Positions 26,890 through 59,712 of a stretch of 64,000 nt of DNA are shown in pieces. The notes under the pieces are model-generated. The model was not told where the DNA came from. It ran no database searches and saw only the letters and a program-made list of their open reading frames with translations. The stretch comes from Candidatus Binatia bacterium. Lineage in GTDB: Bacteria > Desulfobacterota > Binatia > HRBIN30 > BPIQ01. The stretch is from contig BPIQ01000001.1 in NCBI GenBank assembly GCA_026004195.1, positions 903,871 to 967,870 on the forward strand, given 5' to 3'. Each line of letters opens with the position of its first letter. Within the stretch, counting starts at the first letter, position 1. The position numbers and the translations under genes are program-made.

Positions 26890-26963
26890 CGGGGTGTGGC
26901 GCAGACTGGTAGCGCACCTGCCTTGGGCGCAGGGGGTCGGAGGTTCGAATCCTCTCACCCCGA
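26890..26963 (+). tRNA. tRNA-Pro (TGG)
   Basis: A full cloverleaf of 74 bases: acceptor CGGGGTG/CACCCCG with A discriminator, D-arm GCGC...GCGC, anticodon stem CCTGC/GCAGG around loop CTTGGGC (anticodon TGG), and T-arm GGAGGTTCGAATCCTC. CCA is not encoded. It is followed one base later by tRNA-Arg. Confidence 0.95.
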
Positions 26964-26964
26964 C

Positions 26965-27037
26965 GCGCCAGTAGCTCAGTGGACAGAGCAGCGGCCTTCT
27001 AAGCCGCGGGTCAGGGGTTCGAATCCCTTCTGGCGCG
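26965..27037 (+). tRNA. tRNA-Arg (TCT)
   Basis: A 73-base cloverleaf: acceptor GCGCCAG/CTGGCGC with G discriminator, D-arm GCTC...GAGC, anticodon stem GCGGC/GCCGC with loop CTTCTAA (anticodon TCT, reads AGA), T-arm AGGGGTTCGAATCCCT. CCA is not encoded. It is in tandem with tRNA-Pro, and the hairpin-repeat array begins directly downstream. Confidence 0.95.
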
Positions 27038-28020
27038 CCTCTGCCCGCAGGGCGAGACCGGGTGCACGGGCCGACGTCGACGCTCGGTGGGGACGTGGTA
27101 CGTCCCGTCCGGCGGCCGGGGTTCGTCGCAAAACGCGGGGATGGCAAGCCGGAGGGACGCGCTCCGTCGCGTCCGGGGTGGGATCGCCGTGGCCCCTTCG
27201 CGTCCGAGGATCGAACGTTCACGGCATGGGCGAACACGGCCACGGCCGGAGGGACGCGCTCCGTCGCGTCCGGGGTGGGGGGGACCCGCCGGTCGGACGT
27301 CCTCGATGGGCGCCGGTGTCATCCGCGAACATGGTCACGACAGAGGGTGGCACTCCGCAACGTGCCATTCCCGAACATGGCCACGACGGAGCGTGGCCCT
27401 CCGATACGTCCGAAGAGACGGGTACGAACGTGTGCGTCGCGTTTGCAATGATGCGCGGCGTCCGATGAGCGGCCACAGCCGGAGGGAGGCGCTCCGTCGC
27501 GTCCAGGGGGGATGGGGGACGCGACGGTCGGACGTCCTCCATGACCGCCGGTGTCATTCCCGACCACCACGGCCGGAGGGACGCGCTCCGTCCCGTCCAG
27601 GGGGATGGGGCACGCGACGGTCGGACGTCTTCGATGACCGCCGGTGTCATTTCCGAACACGGCCACGACAGAGCGTGGCCCTCCGATTTGTTCGGAAGGG
27701 CGGCGATGGTACGAACGCGTCCGTCCCGTTTGTAACCACGCGCGGCGTTCCATCGCGACACCCCACCCGGACGGACGCGCTGCGTCGCCTCCGGGGGGGT
27801 GGGGGCATCGACGTGGCCCCTTCGCGTCCGAGGATCGACGTTCACGGCATGGGCGGCCCCGGCCGGAGGGACGCGCTCCGTCGCGTCCGGGGCTGGGGGC
27901 GCAGCCGAGCGGGCATGGTTGCAACGGTCTTCGCTGTGATTTCCGGGCACGCCCGCGAGGAGGAGGATGGACGCCTCCGTCGGGTCCGGGGGTCTGCTTC
28001 ACGCACGGCCGTCGCTCGTG
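27038..28020. repeat. hairpin-repeat array, cluster 1
   Basis: About 1 kb with no credible gene, filling the space between tRNA-Arg and tRNA-His. It mixes type A hairpins (GGACGCG-CTCCGT-CGCGTCC, for example 27155-27174 and 27252-27271) with type B hairpins (GGCCACG-loop-CGTGGCC, for example 27379-27398), joined by linkers that recur between clusters, such as GATGACCGCCGGTGTCATT and CCTCCGATACGTCCGAAG. Several copies carry stem mismatches. Open frames here arise only because the repeats lack stops. Confidence 0.85.
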
Positions 28021-28041
28021 CTATCTAGGAAGGCTGCGAGC

Positions 28042-28115
28042 GGTGAGTGTAGCTCAATTGGCAGAGCACTGGACTGTGGCTCCAGGGGCTGAGGGTTCGA
28101 GGCCCTTCACTCACC
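28042..28115 (+). tRNA. tRNA-His (GTG)
   Basis: A cloverleaf with acceptor GTGAGTG/CACTCAC plus the extra G at -1 paired with C73, a histidine tRNA trait. Anticodon stem CTGGA/TCCAG surrounds CTGTGGC (anticodon GTG), and the T-arm is GAGGGTTCGAGGCCCTT. CCA is not encoded. A strong terminator-like hairpin follows. Confidence 0.95.
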
Positions 28116-28121
28116 CTCCTC

Positions 28122-28175
28122 GGCCGGGGCACGGCGTGCGGCCCGGAGGTCGTGCCCCGGCCCGTTCTTCTTGCT
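28122..28175 (+). terminator. terminator-like hairpin after tRNA-His
   Basis: GGCCGGGGCACG at 28122-28133 pairs perfectly with CGTGCCCCGGCC at 28151-28162 (12 pairs, 17-base loop), followed by CGTTCTTCTTG. The T-run is broken but the stem is very stable. Position just after the tRNA supports a terminator. Confidence 0.55.
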
Positions 28176-28300
28176 GGTCGCACACGAGCGCGCCCCCCGG
28201 TAACCCGGGACTCTCCGTAAGAAACCGGGGAACCGGGACCCTTCGAACAATCCGGCCGTCCTTGGAATCCTCGACGGGCGGGTGTAAACGAGGCGGTGCC

Positions 28301-28933
28301 ATGCCGCGGCCCCGCGAGCTTACGGTCGCCGTTCTCGTTTTCCCTTCGTTCGAACTCCTCGATGTCTTCGGGCCGCTCGAGGTCCTGGGAAATCGCAACC
28401 TGAACCCGCAGCCCTTCCGGATCCGTCTGGTAGCCGAGCGGCGCGAGCCGGTTCGGAGCGCTCAAGGACCGGCGGTGTACCCCGACGACACTCTGGACAC
28501 GGTTTCGGCCATCGGCGTGCTTCTCGTTCCGGGAGGCATCGGGACGCGGGCCGAAGTGGAAAACGGCCACCTCCTGGAATGGATCGCCCGCCGGTCCGAG
28601 CAGGCCGAGTTCGTCTGCTCGGTCTGTACCGGTGCGGCCCTCCTTGCGCGTTCGGGCGTTCTCGACGGCCGCCGTGCCACGACGAACAAAAGGGCCTTTC
28701 CGTGGGTCGAACAACTGGGGCCGCGGGTCCGCTGGGTACGGGAGGCCCGCTGGGTCGAGGACGGGAAGTTCGTGACCTCGTCGGGAGTGTCCGCCGGGAT
28801 CGACATGGCTCTCGCCCTCACCGCACGCCTGGTCGGCCTCGAGGCCGCCGAAACCGTGGCACGGTGCATGGAGTACGAATGGCGCAACGACCCTCACCAC
28901 GACCCGTTCGCCAAGGTCTGGGGCCTCGTTTGA
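28301..28933 (+). CDS. DJ-1/PfpI family protein
   Basis: A 210-residue protein of the ThiJ/PfpI (glutamine-amidotransferase-like) fold. The N-terminus VAVLVFPSFELLDVFGPLEVL is typical of the isonitrile-hydratase/AraC-associated branch, and the nucleophile elbow is VCSVCTGAALLA with the central Cys. The late segment TSSGVSAGIDMALALTARL also fits. There is no DNA-binding domain. Start ATG 28301. Members include hydratases, chaperones and peptidases, so activity is open. Repeat clusters lie on both sides. Confidence 0.83.
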   Translation: MPRPRELTVAVLVFPSFELLDVFGPLEVLGNRNLNPQPFRIRLVAERREPVRSAQGPAVYPDDTLDTVSAIGVLLVPGGIGTRAEVENGHLLEWIARRSEQAEFVCSVCTGAALLARSGVLDGRRATTNKRAFPWVEQLGPRVRWVREARWVEDGKFVTSSGVSAGIDMALALTARLVGLEAAETVARCMEYEWRNDPHHDPFAKVWGLV

Positions 28934-28959
28934 ATCGGGAAGGCACGCACTCCGTCGCG

Positions 28960-29545
28960 GCCGAGATGAACGATGTTGCCACACGCGAACCCCGCTCGGA
29001 CGGACGCGCTCCGTCGCGTCCGGGCGTGGGGCGGATCGACGTTCACGGCACGCGCGAACACGGCCCCCGGAGGGACGCGCTCCGTCGCGTCCAGGGGCGT
29101 GGGGAGAACCGTCGGTCGGGCATCGTCGATGACCGCCGGTACCATTCCCGAACACGGCCACGACAGAGCGTGGCCCTCCGATACGTCCGAAGGGGCGGGG
29201 GTACGAACGTGTGCGCCGCGTTTGCAATGACGCGTGGCGTACGACGGACGAAACCCGCCGGAGGGACGCGCTCCGTCGCGGCCGAGATGAACGATGTTGC
29301 CACACGCGAACCCGTTCGGAGGGACGCGCTCCGTCGCGTCCGTCGGGGGGACGCGGCGGTCGCACGTTTTCGATGACCGCCGGTACCATTCCCGAACACG
29401 GCCACGACAGAGCGTGGCCCTCCGATACGTCCGAAGGGGCGGGGGTACGAACGTGTGCGTCGCGTTTGCAATGACGCGCGGCGTACGATGGACGAACACC
29501 GCCGGAGGGACGCGCTCCGTCGCGTCCGGGGAGGAGGGATGAAAA
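28960..29545. repeat. hairpin-repeat array, cluster 2
   Basis: About 0.6 kb of alternating type A and type B hairpins between the PfpI gene and the dockerin gene. Copies of a longer composite unit (A, linker with GATGACCGCCGGTACCATTC, B, linker with GTTTGCAATGACGCG, A) are nearly identical at 29070-29270 and 29323-29525. The last A hairpin ends about 45 bases before the next gene start. No gene is seen. Confidence 0.85.
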
Positions 29546-29577
29546 TGTCACGGCCAAACCTTGGAGGGGAAAATGCC

Positions 29578-30333
29578 ATGAAAAAGGCAACCAACATCCT
29601 TCTCGCCGCGGCAAGCTTCTTCGTCCTCTTTCCGGTGCGGGCCCAGGCACTCTTTCACCTCGCGGTCATCGACGAAATCCTCGCGAGCTACGAAGGCAAC
29701 CCGCAGGTCCAGTTCGTCGAGGTCCGAATGGAACTCGCCCTGCAGCGGTTCGTCCGGAACAGCGTCCTCGGGGTCTTCGACGCCGACGGAAACTACCTCG
29801 GCGACCTCCTGGTCTTGCCGAACGACGTGCCCCGCGACGGGGCCGACGTGCGCTGGATTCTGGGGACCGAAGCCTTCGTCGAACGGAGCGGGCTCACCGT
29901 GGACTTCACGATCCCGCCCGGCCTTCCGGTCGAAGGCGGGATGGTCTGCTGGGGCGCACCGGGAATCGTCGTCCCCTCGCCCGATACCTGGGACCACACC
30001 GATCCCGAGAACTACGTCGACTGCGTGGCTTACGGAAACTACCGGGGACCGACGAACCGGCTCGTCGGCAGGCCGACACCTCTCGACCCCTCGGGACACA
30101 GCCTGGTCCGCATCTCCGAGACGAACGACAACGCGACGGACTTCGCCTGTTCCGCCATGGCGACACCCGAGAACAACGCGGGAGACACCGTGCTCCTGCC
30201 CGCTTCTTCGCCCTGCCCGGTCGACCTCGCCACGCTTCTTTCGGCCCTCTTCTCGCCGGAACCTCCCGGGGAAGCCGACCTCAACGCCGACGGCCGCGTG
30301 AGCGCCGCCGACATCGTGGCCCTGTTTCTGTAA
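29578..30333 (+). CDS. secreted lamin-tail-like protein with dockerin-like motif
   Basis: A 251-residue exported protein: signal peptide MKKATNILLAAASFFVLFPV ending at AQA, then a beta-rich domain with NPQVQFVEVRMEL and GVFDADGNYLGDLL, like lamin-tail domains. The C-terminus DLNADGRVSAADIVALFL is a calcium-loop-like half dockerin. ATG 29578 is preceded by GGAGGGG at good spacing. Gene is flanked on both sides by repeat arrays. Related tails occur in two other genes of the window. Function unknown; probably surface-attached. Confidence 0.65.
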   Translation: MKKATNILLAAASFFVLFPVRAQALFHLAVIDEILASYEGNPQVQFVEVRMELALQRFVRNSVLGVFDADGNYLGDLLVLPNDVPRDGADVRWILGTEAFVERSGLTVDFTIPPGLPVEGGMVCWGAPGIVVPSPDTWDHTDPENYVDCVAYGNYRGPTNRLVGRPTPLDPSGHSLVRISETNDNATDFACSAMATPENNAGDTVLLPASSPCPVDLATLLSALFSPEPPGEADLNADGRVSAADIVALFL

Positions 30334-31266
30334 CCGGGATCCGTGCCCTCGCGTCCGGCGGGGACGGGGATTCGCGCCCGTCCGTCGCGTGAGCGGTGGC
30401 AGATTCGACTATCTTTGCAAACGCCCCGCCGGAGGAACGCGCTCCGTCGCGTCCGGGGGCGTGGGGAGAACCGTCGGTCGGGCATCGTCGATGACCGCCG
30501 GTACCATTCGCGAACACGGCCACGACGGAGCGTGGCCCTCCGATACGTGCCATTCCTGGACCCGCCGGAGGGATGCGCTCCGTCGCGTCCGGGGACGTGG
30601 GGATCCACGTGGCGCGCTTCGCGTCCGAGGATCGACGTTCACGGCACCCGAACAGGCCACGACAAGCGTGGCCCTCCGATACGTCCGAAGGGGGCGGTAC
30701 GAACTGTGCGCGCGTTTGAATGACGCGGGCTACATACGAACACCCGGGCGGGAACATGGCCACGACAAAGCGTGGCCCTCCGATACGTCCGAAGGGGCGC
30801 CGGTACGAACGTGTGCGCCGCGTTTGCAATGACGCGTGGCGTACCATGGACGAACACCACGGGCGCGACCGGGCCCGTCGATTCCATTGAATTTTCTGGT
30901 CGAAATTCGGGTGACCGGGGATTTTTTCACGGTCCCCGCGCTCCGTCGCGTCCGGGGGCGCGGGGAGAACCGTCGGTCCGGCATCGTCGATGACCGCCGG
31001 TACCATTCGCGAACACGGCCACGACAGAGCGTGGCCCTCCGAGGAACATGGCCACGACAAAGCGTGGCCCTCCGATACGTCCGAAGGGGCGCCGGTACGA
31101 ACGTGTGCGCCGCGTTTGCAATGACGCGCGGCATACGATGGACGAACCCCGCCGGAGGAACGCGCTCCGTCGCGTCCAGGGGCGTGGAAAGAACCGTCGG
31201 TCCGGCATCGTCGATGACCGCCGGTACCATTCGCGAACACGGCCACGACGGAGCGTGGCCCTCCGA
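30334..31266. repeat. hairpin-repeat array, cluster 3
   Basis: About 0.93 kb between the dockerin gene and the cytochrome gene. It contains at least six type B hairpins (for example 30518-30537, 31019-31038, 31245-31264) with loops ACAGAG, ACGGAG, ACAAAG or ACAAG, and several type A copies. A non-repeat patch near 30860-30930 (CCATTGAATTTTCTGGTCG) interrupts it. The last hairpin ends just downstream of the stop of the leftward cytochrome gene. Confidence 0.85.
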
Positions 31267-39404: not shown

Positions 39405-39950
39405 CGTTCACGGCGCGCCCGTGGCCACGCGCCGAGGGACGCGCTCCGTCGCGTCCGGCGGAGGGGCGCGCTCCGTCGCGTCCGGGGGGGGGTGGATCGA
39501 CGCGGCCGTTCCGCGTCCCAGGATCGGCGTGCCCGACATCGACGACCGCGGCCACGCGGAGGGACGCGCTCCGTCGCGTCCGGGGCGGGGCGAGGCGAAT
39601 GTGCGCACGCGCTGCATCCGAGGATGGCCGGCGGCATTTCCGACCACGGCCACGACAGAGCGTGGCCCTCCGAATCCACGCCCGACGCATCGTATTCGTG
39701 CCGGAGGGACGCGCTCCGTCGCGTCCGGGGGCGGGGGCGAACGTGTCCGTCTCGTTTGCAACGACGCGCGGTGTGCGATGCGCGGACGCGAACCCTGCCG
39801 GAGGGACGCGCTCCGTCGCGTCCGGGGTGGGGCGGTGGACGTGCTCGTCGCCTTCGCAATGCCGCGCGGCGTCCGGTGACCCGACCCGCACGCGGAGGGA
39901 CGCGCTCCGTCGCGTCCGGGGCGGGGGGATCGACGCGGACGCTCGCATTC
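39405..39950. repeat. hairpin-repeat array, cluster 4
   Basis: About 0.55 kb upstream of addB with six or more type A hairpins (two in tandem near 39436-39484, others near 39559, 39704, 39801 and 39897) and one type B near 39648. Linkers again include GTCTCGTTTGCAACGACGCG-like sequence. The nearest hairpin lies some 70 bases from the addB start, so it would be transcribed only if the promoter is upstream of the array. No gene is seen from here to tRNA-Lys. Confidence 0.85.
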
Positions 39951-42884: not shown

Positions 42885-43022
42885 GCCCCACCCCCGGGCG
42901 CGACGGAGCGCGCCCCTCCGGCACCTGCGCGTGTAACGCGTGCGCGTCTGCGTCACGCTTGGAATCCGCAATCGGAGGGCCACGCTCTGTCGTGGCCGCG
43001 CTCGTCGATGGTAGGGACGTCG
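42885..43022. repeat. hairpin repeats inside a broken HEPN gene, cluster 5
   Basis: Two hairpins: 42896-42915 has stem GGGCGCG/CGCGCCC with loop ACGGAG (a compensated variant of type A), and 42978-42997 is type B in inverted orientation (GGCCACG-CTCTGT-CGTGGCC). They are followed by linker GATGGTAGGGACGTC, also found near other copies. The repeat abuts the point where HEPN similarity stops. Confidence 0.8.
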
Positions 43023-43467: not shown

Positions 43468-43772
43468 GGCCGGAGTTTACAGCCAGCGGTTTTCTTCCAC
43501 AAACCCGAGCCTTCGCGGCCGTTGGAGGGTTCCAGACCCGGGATGGTCCTCGAAACTCTCGTGACCGTCTACAGCGGGAAATTCTCCCTTTCGAACCCGT
43601 CGCTCTTGATCGGAGGCTTGGCCTCGGGATCGACGACGCGACCGAGCGTGCCGCTCCGCGTCGCCAGCGCCAACCGCCTTGCCTTGAGGGCTCGATGAGA
43701 TCGACTCGGAGGGCGACCGGTGGTATCTCCCTCGTCCGCTGGAATCCGGAAGGCAGGGTGCGGAAACACCCG
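43468..43772. other. 305 bases without recognisable gene
   Basis: Nothing with a credible start, ribosome site or family resemblance is seen on either strand. A few short open frames exist but look incidental. This lies inside the run of broken genes and may be decayed coding DNA. Confidence 0.4.
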
Positions 43773-46435: not shown

Positions 46436-47180
46436 GCCCCCCGCCCCGGACGTATCGGAGGGCGCCCTCGCGTGGGTGCAGGCACCCGCTCGTGCCGCGC
46501 GGGCACGTCATCCCCGCCCCTCGGACGATCGGAGGGCCACGCTCTGTCGTGGCCGTGTTCGCGATGGCGGGGACGTCGATCTTTCCGACGTGAACGGACA
46601 CGTACGATGCGCCGCCCCCCGGACGCGACGGAGCGCGTCCCTCCGGCGTGGGTCTTACCCATGGAACGCCGCGCATCGTTGCAAACGGCGGGCAGGTTCA
46701 TACCCCCCGGCCCCTCGGACGTATCGGAGGGCCACGCTCTGTCGTGGCCGTGTTCGCCGGAGGGACCCGCTCTGTCGCGTCCGTGTCGCGCGCCCGAACG
46801 TCGATCCGCCGCCCCCGGACGCGACGGAGCGCGTCCCTCCGGGTGCCCGTGTTCGCGGATGGCAGGGACGTCGATCCTTCCGATGCGAAGGGACGACGTA
46901 CGATGCCCCACCCCTGGACGCGACGGAGCGCGTCCCTCCGGACGTGTTCGTGTCCGCCCATCGGAACGCCGCGCATCGTTGCAAACGCGGCGGGCACGTT
47001 CGTACCCCGCGCCCCTCGGACGTATCGGAGGGCCACGCTCTGTCGTGGCCGTGTTCATCGGAGGGACCCGCTCTGTCGGGTCCGTGTTCGCGCTTGCCCT
47101 GAACGTCGATCCGCCCCCCGCCCGGACGCGACGGAGCGCGTCCCTCCGCGCGGCCACCGTCGCGGATAGCAACGTCGTAC
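46436..47180. repeat. hairpin-repeat array, cluster 6 (inverted)
   Basis: About 0.75 kb with the same elements as clusters 1-4 but in the opposite orientation. It includes inverted type B (GGCCACG-CTCTGT-CGTGGCC) near 46733 and 47030, inverted type A near 46621, 46816 and 46918, and a third stem type GGACCCG-CTCTGT-CGGGTCC at 47064-47083. The copy at 46763-46782 has one arm of each type (GGACCCG against CGCGTCC), leaving one mismatch. No gene is seen between 46381 and 47295. Confidence 0.85.
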
Positions 47181-49978: not shown

Positions 49979-50021
49979 GGCGGAGTCCCTCCGAAACATT
50001 CGAACTCGGGGCCTCGCCTCG

Positions 50022-50083
50022 CCAGGAGTCATCAGCCCGGCCCCGGGGGGCGGTTTGCAGACGGGGGGACTCCATCCCCGCTG
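50022..50083 (-). promoter_or_regulatory. fluoride (crcB) riboswitch
   Basis: Reading leftward, CAGCGGGGATGGAGTCCCCC forms the first stem with the conserved GATGG, then AAACCGCC, a second GC-rich stem (CCCCGGGGCCGGG), and CTGATGACTCCTGG. Order and spacing match the crcB RNA motif. About 40 bases later CGGAG-GGA-CTCCG hides the crcB ribosome site, which suggests control of translation initiation. It lies directly upstream of crcB-DUF190. Confidence 0.82.
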
Positions 50084-50089
50084 CGGTCG

Positions 50090-59617: not shown

Positions 59618-59712
59618 GCGGCCATCCGGAGGAACGCGCTCCGTCGCGCCCCGATTCGTTGGGCGAAACGTCACATCCGGAGGGACGCGCTCCGTCGCGT
59701 CCGGGGGGCGGC
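59618..59712. repeat. hairpin repeats, cluster 7
   Basis: Two type A hairpins in tandem after the activator gene: a degenerate one at about 59632-59653 (GGAACGCG...CGCGCCCC) and a perfect one near 59683-59702 (GGACGCG-CTCCGT-CGCGTCC). They separate the activator from the GDT1-like gene. No gene is seen here. Confidence 0.8.

Follow-up and report, generated by a model that had tools for sequence, protein, structure and literature searches.

GGAG-footed REP-like hairpins amplified in a Candidatus Binatia genome whose assembly lacks a RAYT gene

Repetitive extragenic palindromic (REP) hairpins are abundant in numerous bacterial genomes, and the way in which REP-associated tyrosine transposases (RAYTs) recognise and spread them is still an open question. 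In this study, we analysed a hairpin family in 64,000 nucleotides of Candidatus Binatia DNA, called the window below (positions 903871-967870 of contig C1, BPIQ01000001.1, in the 3.63 Mb assembly GCA_026004195.1, which has 6 contigs and is 98.94% complete). The window was scanned for a 7-bp stem with at most one mismatch and a loop of CT[CG][CT]G[TC], and the foot, a tetranucleotide on the 5' side of the stem, was left free. The scan gave 40 hairpins, 27 on the plus strand and 13 on the minus strand, of which 31 had perfect stems and 37 carried the foot GGAG, though the foot was unconstrained. They form seven clear clusters and one degenerate single (Table 1), and 21 of them lie in the interval 27038-31266. 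The initial annotation of this DNA, which had described at least seven clusters of hairpins with a 7-bp stem, a 6-base loop and a common frame, is borne out by these hairpins, and one example of each of its four stems folded as DNA in the form it had drawn. A 217-base A-B-A unit (hairpin types defined below) folded at -65.2 kcal/mol, compared with -56.9 (standard deviation 3.2) in shuffles, and this fold partly pairs B with the next A. The 184-base repeats at 29101 and 29345 are 92% identical. The first array lies in 26890-28116, between tRNA-Arg(tct) and tRNA-His(gtg), and tRNA-Pro(tgg) stands just ahead.

The stem types were counted in 616,801 sampled bases, namely the window and 29 stretches chosen around known matches. 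This sample held 371 frame matches, and the 332 perfect stems were 186 of type A (GGACGCG/CGCGTCC), 109 of type B (GGCCACG/CGTGGCC), 36 of type C (GGACCCG/CGGGTCC) and one GGGCGCG/CGCGCCC. Because this last stem is a single copy, there are three masters and not four types as had been proposed; the other three stand. The loop follows the type: 185 of 186 A hairpins have CTCCGT, and CTCTGT is the loop of 105 of 109 B hairpins and of 35 of 36 C hairpins. The masters differ from each other by paired changes, and to this extent the compensated stem changes of the initial annotation hold; among single copies they fail, as 39 of the 40 off-master copies in the sample were mismatched. Copies with a single mismatch comprised 12 G.T, 10 A.C and 12 transversions, and since this spectrum has no G.U-type bias, it gives no sign that a transcript must fold.

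Table 1. Hairpin clusters and individual hairpins in the window
Feature	Position	Strand	Remarks
Hairpin cluster 1	27150..27888	A on +, B on -	between tRNA-Arg(tct) and tRNA-His(gtg)
Hairpin cluster 2	28939..29527	A on +, B on -	intergenic
Hairpin cluster 3	30430..31265	A on +, B on -	between convergent genes
Hairpin cluster 4	39432..39917	A on +, one B on -	
Hairpin cluster 5	42896..42997	GGGCGCG on -, B on +	single GGGCGCG copy
Degenerate A-like single hairpin	43634..43657	-	at most 5 mismatches of 24; doubtful
Hairpin cluster 6	46530..47148	B and C on +, A on -	
Hairpin cluster 7	59628..59702	two A-type on +	first one degenerate
A, perfect	27150..27174	+	
A, perfect	27247..27271	+	DNA fold -8.5 kcal/mol
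B, perfect	27379..27403	-	
A, 1 mismatch	27480..27504	+	
A, 1 mismatch	27574..27598	+	
B, perfect	27661..27685	-	
A, 1 mismatch	27768..27792	+	foot CGGAC, loop CTGCGT
A, perfect	27864..27888	+	
A, perfect stem	28997..29021	+	foot CGGAC
A, perfect	29068..29092	+	
B, perfect	29156..29180	-	
A, 1 mismatch	29259..29283	+	
A, perfect	29317..29341	+	
B, perfect	29400..29424	-	
A, perfect	29503..29527	+	
A, 1 mismatch	30430..30454	+	
B, perfect	30518..30542	-	
A, 1 mismatch	30566..30590	+	
B, perfect	31017..31041	-	
A, 1 mismatch	31153..31177	+	
B, perfect	31241..31265	-	DNA fold -8.3 kcal/mol (31240-31265)
A, perfect stem	39432..39456	+	foot CCGAG
GGGCGCG/CGCGTCC	39459..39483	+	uncompensated
A, perfect	39557..39581	+	
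B, perfect	39648..39672	-	
A, perfect	39702..39726	+	
A, perfect	39799..39823	+	
A, perfect	39893..39917	+	
GGGCGCG/CGCGCCC, perfect	42896..42920	-	sole such copy in the 616,801 sampled bases; folded as DNA
B, perfect	42973..42997	+	
B, perfect	46530..46554	+	
A, perfect	46621..46645	-	
B, perfect	46725..46749	+	
GGACCCG/CGCGTCC	46758..46782	+	C-like, one mismatch
A, perfect	46817..46841	-	
A, perfect	46916..46940	-	
B, perfect	47026..47050	+	
C, perfect	47059..47083	+	folded as DNA
A, perfect	47124..47148	-	
A, perfect	59678..59702	+	

Most loci in other genomes were fetched by a scan in which the outer stem bases were fixed and the four inner pairs were free. In all, the loci of other genomes held 163 unique frame matches, and 52 of these were perfectly paired, compared with a mean of 1.5 and a maximum of 6 when the 3' arms were re-dealt 1000 times. 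Opposite-strand shadow matches, decayed copies and chance matches are among the remaining 111. These loci contained 39 different perfectly paired stems, and all four Watson-Crick pairs were seen at the inner pairs 7/22, 8/21, 9/20 and 10/19. The scan just described, run on contigs of named genomes, gave at least 119 stretches with the hairpin pattern, in which the best match was perfect in 73, had one mismatch in 13 and had two or more in 33. When hairpins of other genomes were picked by loop and perfect stem, the foot was GGAG in 143 of 157 and CGGAG or TGGAG in 134. Because masters and genomes covary while single copies decay uncompensated, folding counts when the element is copied and not for every resident copy, and compensation is selected at copying. 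The earlier conclusion that covariation means selection of the folded form is right for the copying step and does not extend to each resident copy.

The foot CGGAG is complementary to the loop CTCCG, and because both are nearly invariant, covariation cannot judge a helix between them. A foot-loop pseudoknot seems unlikely as a general rule, as the foot can also be AGGAG (Pelagicoccus, L330), GTGG is combined with a CTCCGT loop in L307, and TGGAG goes with TCCC/CCCT loops in L338 and L336.

In the whole assembly, a frame scan with the inner stem free gave 296 and 291 matches, 587 in total, compared with 0 and 2 for the reversed pattern used as control. The repeats are thus not confined to one contig, an outcome that the initial annotation had taken as decisive against its proposal, and they occur in other genomes too. 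Arrangement was studied in 471 hairpins that each differ from a master at no more than 5 of 24 positions. The amplification looks recent, because 331 of the 471 copies are exact to a master. Of 382 neighbouring pairs, 379 follow a rule by which B and C share a strand and A takes the opposite one, which gives a mosaic of inverted pairs. The composite unit that had been described holds as A facing B or C, and its fixed linkers do not, since the gaps vary widely: among the commonest gaps listed, those from A to B cluster at 58-67 and also occur at 29-30 and 86, and those from B to A range from 12 to 86. An A copy opens 77 of 88 clusters, and conservation stops one base outside the foot of this leading A, where C is found in 91% of the 77. 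Tandem arrays with periods of approximately 141-155, seen in the hairpin positions along the genome, suggest that local duplication contributes as well.

Gene overlap and cluster orientation were scored with our own crude gene-calling script, by which 8 of the 471 hairpins lie inside called genes, and 85 clusters fall into 45 unidirectional, 24 convergent and 16 divergent gaps. Hairpins between genes could be kept for an RNA role in the host, for example transcription termination or mRNA protection, and convergent gaps are indeed somewhat over-represented (24 of 85 clusters compared with 49 of 269 gaps). However, A was co-directional with transcription in 23 unidirectional cases and opposite in 22, so that orientation is not tied to transcription; the consensus flanks carry no U-tract after the stem, and no Rfam family reached its gathering score on the window hairpins. 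Considering also the uncompensated off-master copies and the absence of a G.U-type bias, we regard an RNA role as highly improbable. Neighbouring clusters had the same orientation in 41 of 58 cases (approximately 51% expected), with a weak link with GC skew, and local duplication accounts for this shared orientation as well as a dependence on the direction of replication would.

The initial annotation saw no RAYT gene and suggested looking for TnpA_REP. This absence was confirmed for the whole assembly: Pfam Y1_Tnp had no match in the window's genome, and profile searches found neither a RAYT candidate nor a fragment in the assembly even at E up to 10, so the hairpins have no REPtron partner here. 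Relatives of NF047646 (REP-associated tyrosine transposase) were present in all 14 other genomes searched in the window's order (E up to 1e-5), and Pfam Y1_Tnp was found in 20 of 23 host genomes, the exceptions being G301, G302 and G313. A RAYT might still be present and active in an assembly gap of this metagenome-assembled genome (MAG). RAYTs of the group described below sit inside or beside hairpin arrays, the many exact copies would agree with such activity, and the array on contig C6 stops 32 bases before the contig end while that on contig C5 begins approximately 1 kb from the contig start, positions from which we suppose that arrays may break the assembly. The completeness of the assembly, its division into only 6 contigs and the lack of even a fragment argue against a hidden gene, and we consider it rather unlikely.

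RAYT genes beside such hairpins were found in other genomes. In the first check of 70 Y1 neighbourhoods, six loci had GGAG hairpins (L293, L295, L317, L306, L304 and L196). The genes in L293, L295 and L317 are flanked by GGAG hairpins on both sides, and genes flanked in this way come from Pelagicoccus mobilis, Phycisphaerae and Kiritimatiellae. The L306 gene is another member of this family, and its hairpins of the 7-bp stem, 6-base loop (7/6) type are approximately 1.1 kb off; L304 is a different Y1 gene (256 aa) with hairpins approximately 400 bases away. The hairpin pair approximately 150-230 bases upstream of L196 was taken as coincidence, the gene being of the IS200 Y1 family. Loci fetched by their hairpins added two more group members and a partial one, from Latescibacterota, Dehalococcoidia (a broken gene) and Verrucomicrobia (at a contig end).

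With a threshold of E up to 0.01, a profile built from nine proteins of the flanked Y1 gene group (A1) picked up relatives in 25 of 30 genomes, and 18 of its matches were below 1e-50. Nine of these 18 RAYT matches adjoin a 7/6 hairpin (L327-L333, L335, L337), which has a single stem mismatch in L337 and is present on just one side of the gene in L331 and L332; five have other GGAG-footed hairpins (L336, L338, L339, L354, L355), two have GTAG hairpins (L352, L300) and two have none (L334, L353). The window's own A and B stems stand beside the RAYTs of L333 (Verrucomicrobia) and L335 (Desulfobacterales), and the L337 RAYT belongs to the window's order. In the window's phylum the A1 group is rare: at E up to 1e-25, matches came from 2 of 297 genomes. 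The 80-bit cut-off of NF047646 was reached by 8 of 10 proteins tested, and the other two scored 78.8 and 77.4. The best solved relative of the A1 profile is E. coli TnpAREP (4er8, E 1.9e-13). Most flanked proteins have the PDH[VIL]H and Y...NP motifs of HUH single-tyrosine enzymes; the exceptions are L335 (C for Y), L328 (NL), L341 (NS) and L340 (NA). The L335 gene (1483-1965), with cysteine at the catalytic tyrosine position, is possibly a dead transposase judging by its sequence, and its genome has 308 frame matches. In L341 and L356 (G318, Kiritimatiellae), GGAG hairpins lie inside the RAYT reading frame, which stays open from the HUH half through to the tyrosine half.

We believe that the repeats are very probably an amplified and orphaned population within a class of GGAG-footed REPs (REP doublets, or REPINs, and bacterial interspersed mosaic elements, BIMEs) that has 7-bp stems and CTCYGT loops; the assembly contains no RAYT for them. 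If E. coli TnpAREP is taken as the model, a RAYT (an HUH Y1 transposase) of one group would recognise the hairpin and foot on single-stranded DNA and would cut and rejoin beside the hairpin. Only sequences that fold would then be copied, and for this reason masters would stay perfectly paired while inserted copies drift. We infer that a RAYT of the GGAG group was formerly encoded in the window's genome, or still lies in a gap of its assembly, and that this enzyme did the copying, the movement itself being predicted from the analogy.

Another enzyme may instead have spread the repeats, such as an unrelated transposase, reverse transcription, or slippage with gene conversion, the RAYT link elsewhere being secondary. 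Four frame-rich genomes without a clear RAYT and the tandem arrays noted above would fit this explanation. However, in many phyla the genes that GGAG hairpins adjoin belong to a single RAYT group, and a GGAG-footed perfect hairpin occurred in only 5 of 443 base-shuffled 700-base flanks (GTAG in 5 and GTGG in 7), which makes a different enzyme improbable. Several observations do weigh against an orphaned class spread by its own RAYT: 64 of the 70 Y1 neighbourhoods first checked had no GGAG hairpin nearby; no clear RAYT was found in the frame-rich MAGs G301 (363 matches), G302 (246) and G313 (125), of which G302 and G313 gave sub-threshold RAYT fragments only; the RAYT tree is poorly resolved and the genes with 7/6-type hairpins do not form one clade in it; and most host genomes are MAGs, in which contigs may be missing or misbinned.

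The frame was counted in 33 genomes, chosen because earlier scans had touched them, and matches ranged from 1 to 363, compared with 0-6 in controls. Examples are 363 in SKYG40, 308 in a Desulfobacterales MAG, 246 in SKYG83, 245 in Phycisphaerae, 197 in Lentisphaerae GWF2_57_35 and 128 in the isolate Pelagicoccus mobilis; G308, G310 and G319 were among the few not clearly above their control. In samples chosen independently of those scans the family is rare: it occurred in 2 of 297 genomes of the window's phylum, one of them the window's own. With a looser frame, 69 of 145 genomes of the window's class had some match, and the matches listed appeared by eye to be unpaired chance except in the window's genome, G353 and G327. 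G353, of the window's order, has the stem GGCGCCG in 4 copies, 2 of them perfect. G327, of the same order (L253, L254, L337), has 12 identical GGAG-GGCGAGG-CTCCGT-CCGAGCC repeats, whose stem GGCGAGG/CCGAGCC would contain two adjacent G/A mismatches. Spread by viruses was considered and not adopted: viral contigs had 11 pattern matches, of which 9 carry 2-4 mismatches in the stem and appear to be chance, and L065 and L071 (IMG/VR contigs classed as viral) have one perfect GGAG hairpin each, the sole paired copy there. A Chthoniobacter MAG locus (L130) has nine pattern matches in 8 kb, none of them paired. In the window itself, a fluoride riboswitch lies at 50016-50088 on the minus strand (Rfam RF01734, 44.5 bits).

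The residue aligned to H101 of E. coli TnpAREP (numbered as in PMC6006769) was scored in 39 Y1 genes whose motif could be read, and was H in 19 and T, S, R or M in 20. Among the 19 H genes, 12 had GTAG/GTGG-footed hairpins, none had GGAG and 7 had no hairpin; among the 20 others, 14 had GGAG hairpins and 6 had none, and the residue was T, S or R in all 14 GGAG-flanked genes. L332 had GGAG together with a weak 6-bp GTAG hairpin. Some of these assignments rest on one hairpin; where at least two different footed hairpins were listed, 7 H genes had GTAG/GTGG and 12 non-H genes had GGAG, with no crossing. Nine readable later loci comprised 3 H genes with GTAG, 2 H genes with GTAG shifted by one base, 1 H gene with none and three non-H rows for genes already counted among the 39. 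Two further genes agree with this split: the first has T and the foot CGGAG, which occurs three times, and the second has H and the foot TGTAG. The scored genes are related and come partly from the same genomes, so the counts are not independent. PMC6006769 counts H101 among the residues that contact GTAG and gives R as an occasional replacement for it in subclasses 2.5 and 2.7, and therefore R alone is not diagnostic. The H101 Y1 gene of L307 (Lentisphaerae GWF2) has GTGG-footed hairpins with CTCCGT loops, so loop and foot combine differently.

On this alignment, residue 101 appears to track which foot a RAYT uses, and it may help to read the second base of the foot. We speculated further that GGAG REPs and the RAYTs whose residue 101 is T, S or R are another REPtron class that moves between phyla, with residue 101 setting foot base 2; this is a tentative proposal, and our judgement leans slightly against it. 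If it is true, the T of GT[AG]G would be read by H and the G of GGAG by T, S or R, and foot specificity would be predictable from protein sequence and switchable by one substitution. With one residue that correlates with the foot, the proposed guide-sequence model can be tested directly by mutation. The window's genome is a naturally occurring example in which REPs are numerous and the assembly lacks their transposase.

The first description of the hairpins as REP/BIME-like is right in the broad sense, given their stem-loop form, high copy number, extragenic position, conserved foot and inverted arrays. With GGAG as the foot, they have neither the GTAG/GTGG foot of the GTAG REP superfamily nor the CGTC-type tag of the CGTC superfamily. 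GTAG/GTGG REPs with their RAYT (REPtrons; group 2 in E. coli, group 3 in Stenotrophomonas/Pseudomonas) are similar in being short palindromes with a conserved 5' tetranucleotide, intergenic, in high copy and in inverted pairs, with a RAYT beside the hairpins in some hosts and a match to NF047646. In contrast, the hairpins here have GGAG instead of GT[AG]G and a 6-base CTCYGT loop, the RAYTs of their group have T, S or R and not H at the H101-aligned residue, the class was encountered in this study mostly outside Proteobacteria, and the window's genome is without a RAYT. Similarly, the CGTC REPs described by Di Nocera et al. (2013, PMC3733652) are short tagged palindromes in a host without a known transposase. 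Their tag is CGTC, their stems are 8-9 bp long and begin with two A/T pairs, and they have 4-5 base loops and CCA tails, whereas the window hairpins have a GGAG foot, a 7-bp stem starting with GG and a 6-base loop. Class 3 TnpA_Y1, as PMC6006769 describes it, also goes with structures that have a non-GTAG foot and reach high copy in some Planctomycetes and Acidobacteria; its foot is CnGA and its motif Y----Q, compared with GGAG and mostly the class 2 motif Y---NP here. In the running text of PMC3733652, PMC8266576, PMC6006769, PMC2817692 and further REPIN/RAYT papers, where figures and longer sequences escape a word search, no word began with GGAG, and the literature searches, within the texts they reached, returned no report of GGAG REPs; an earlier mention elsewhere is possible. 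GGAG-footed REPs are a further foot class, apart from the GTAG and CGTC types, which we observed chiefly in Verrucomicrobia and relatives and also in other phyla, and which has a RAYT group of its own.

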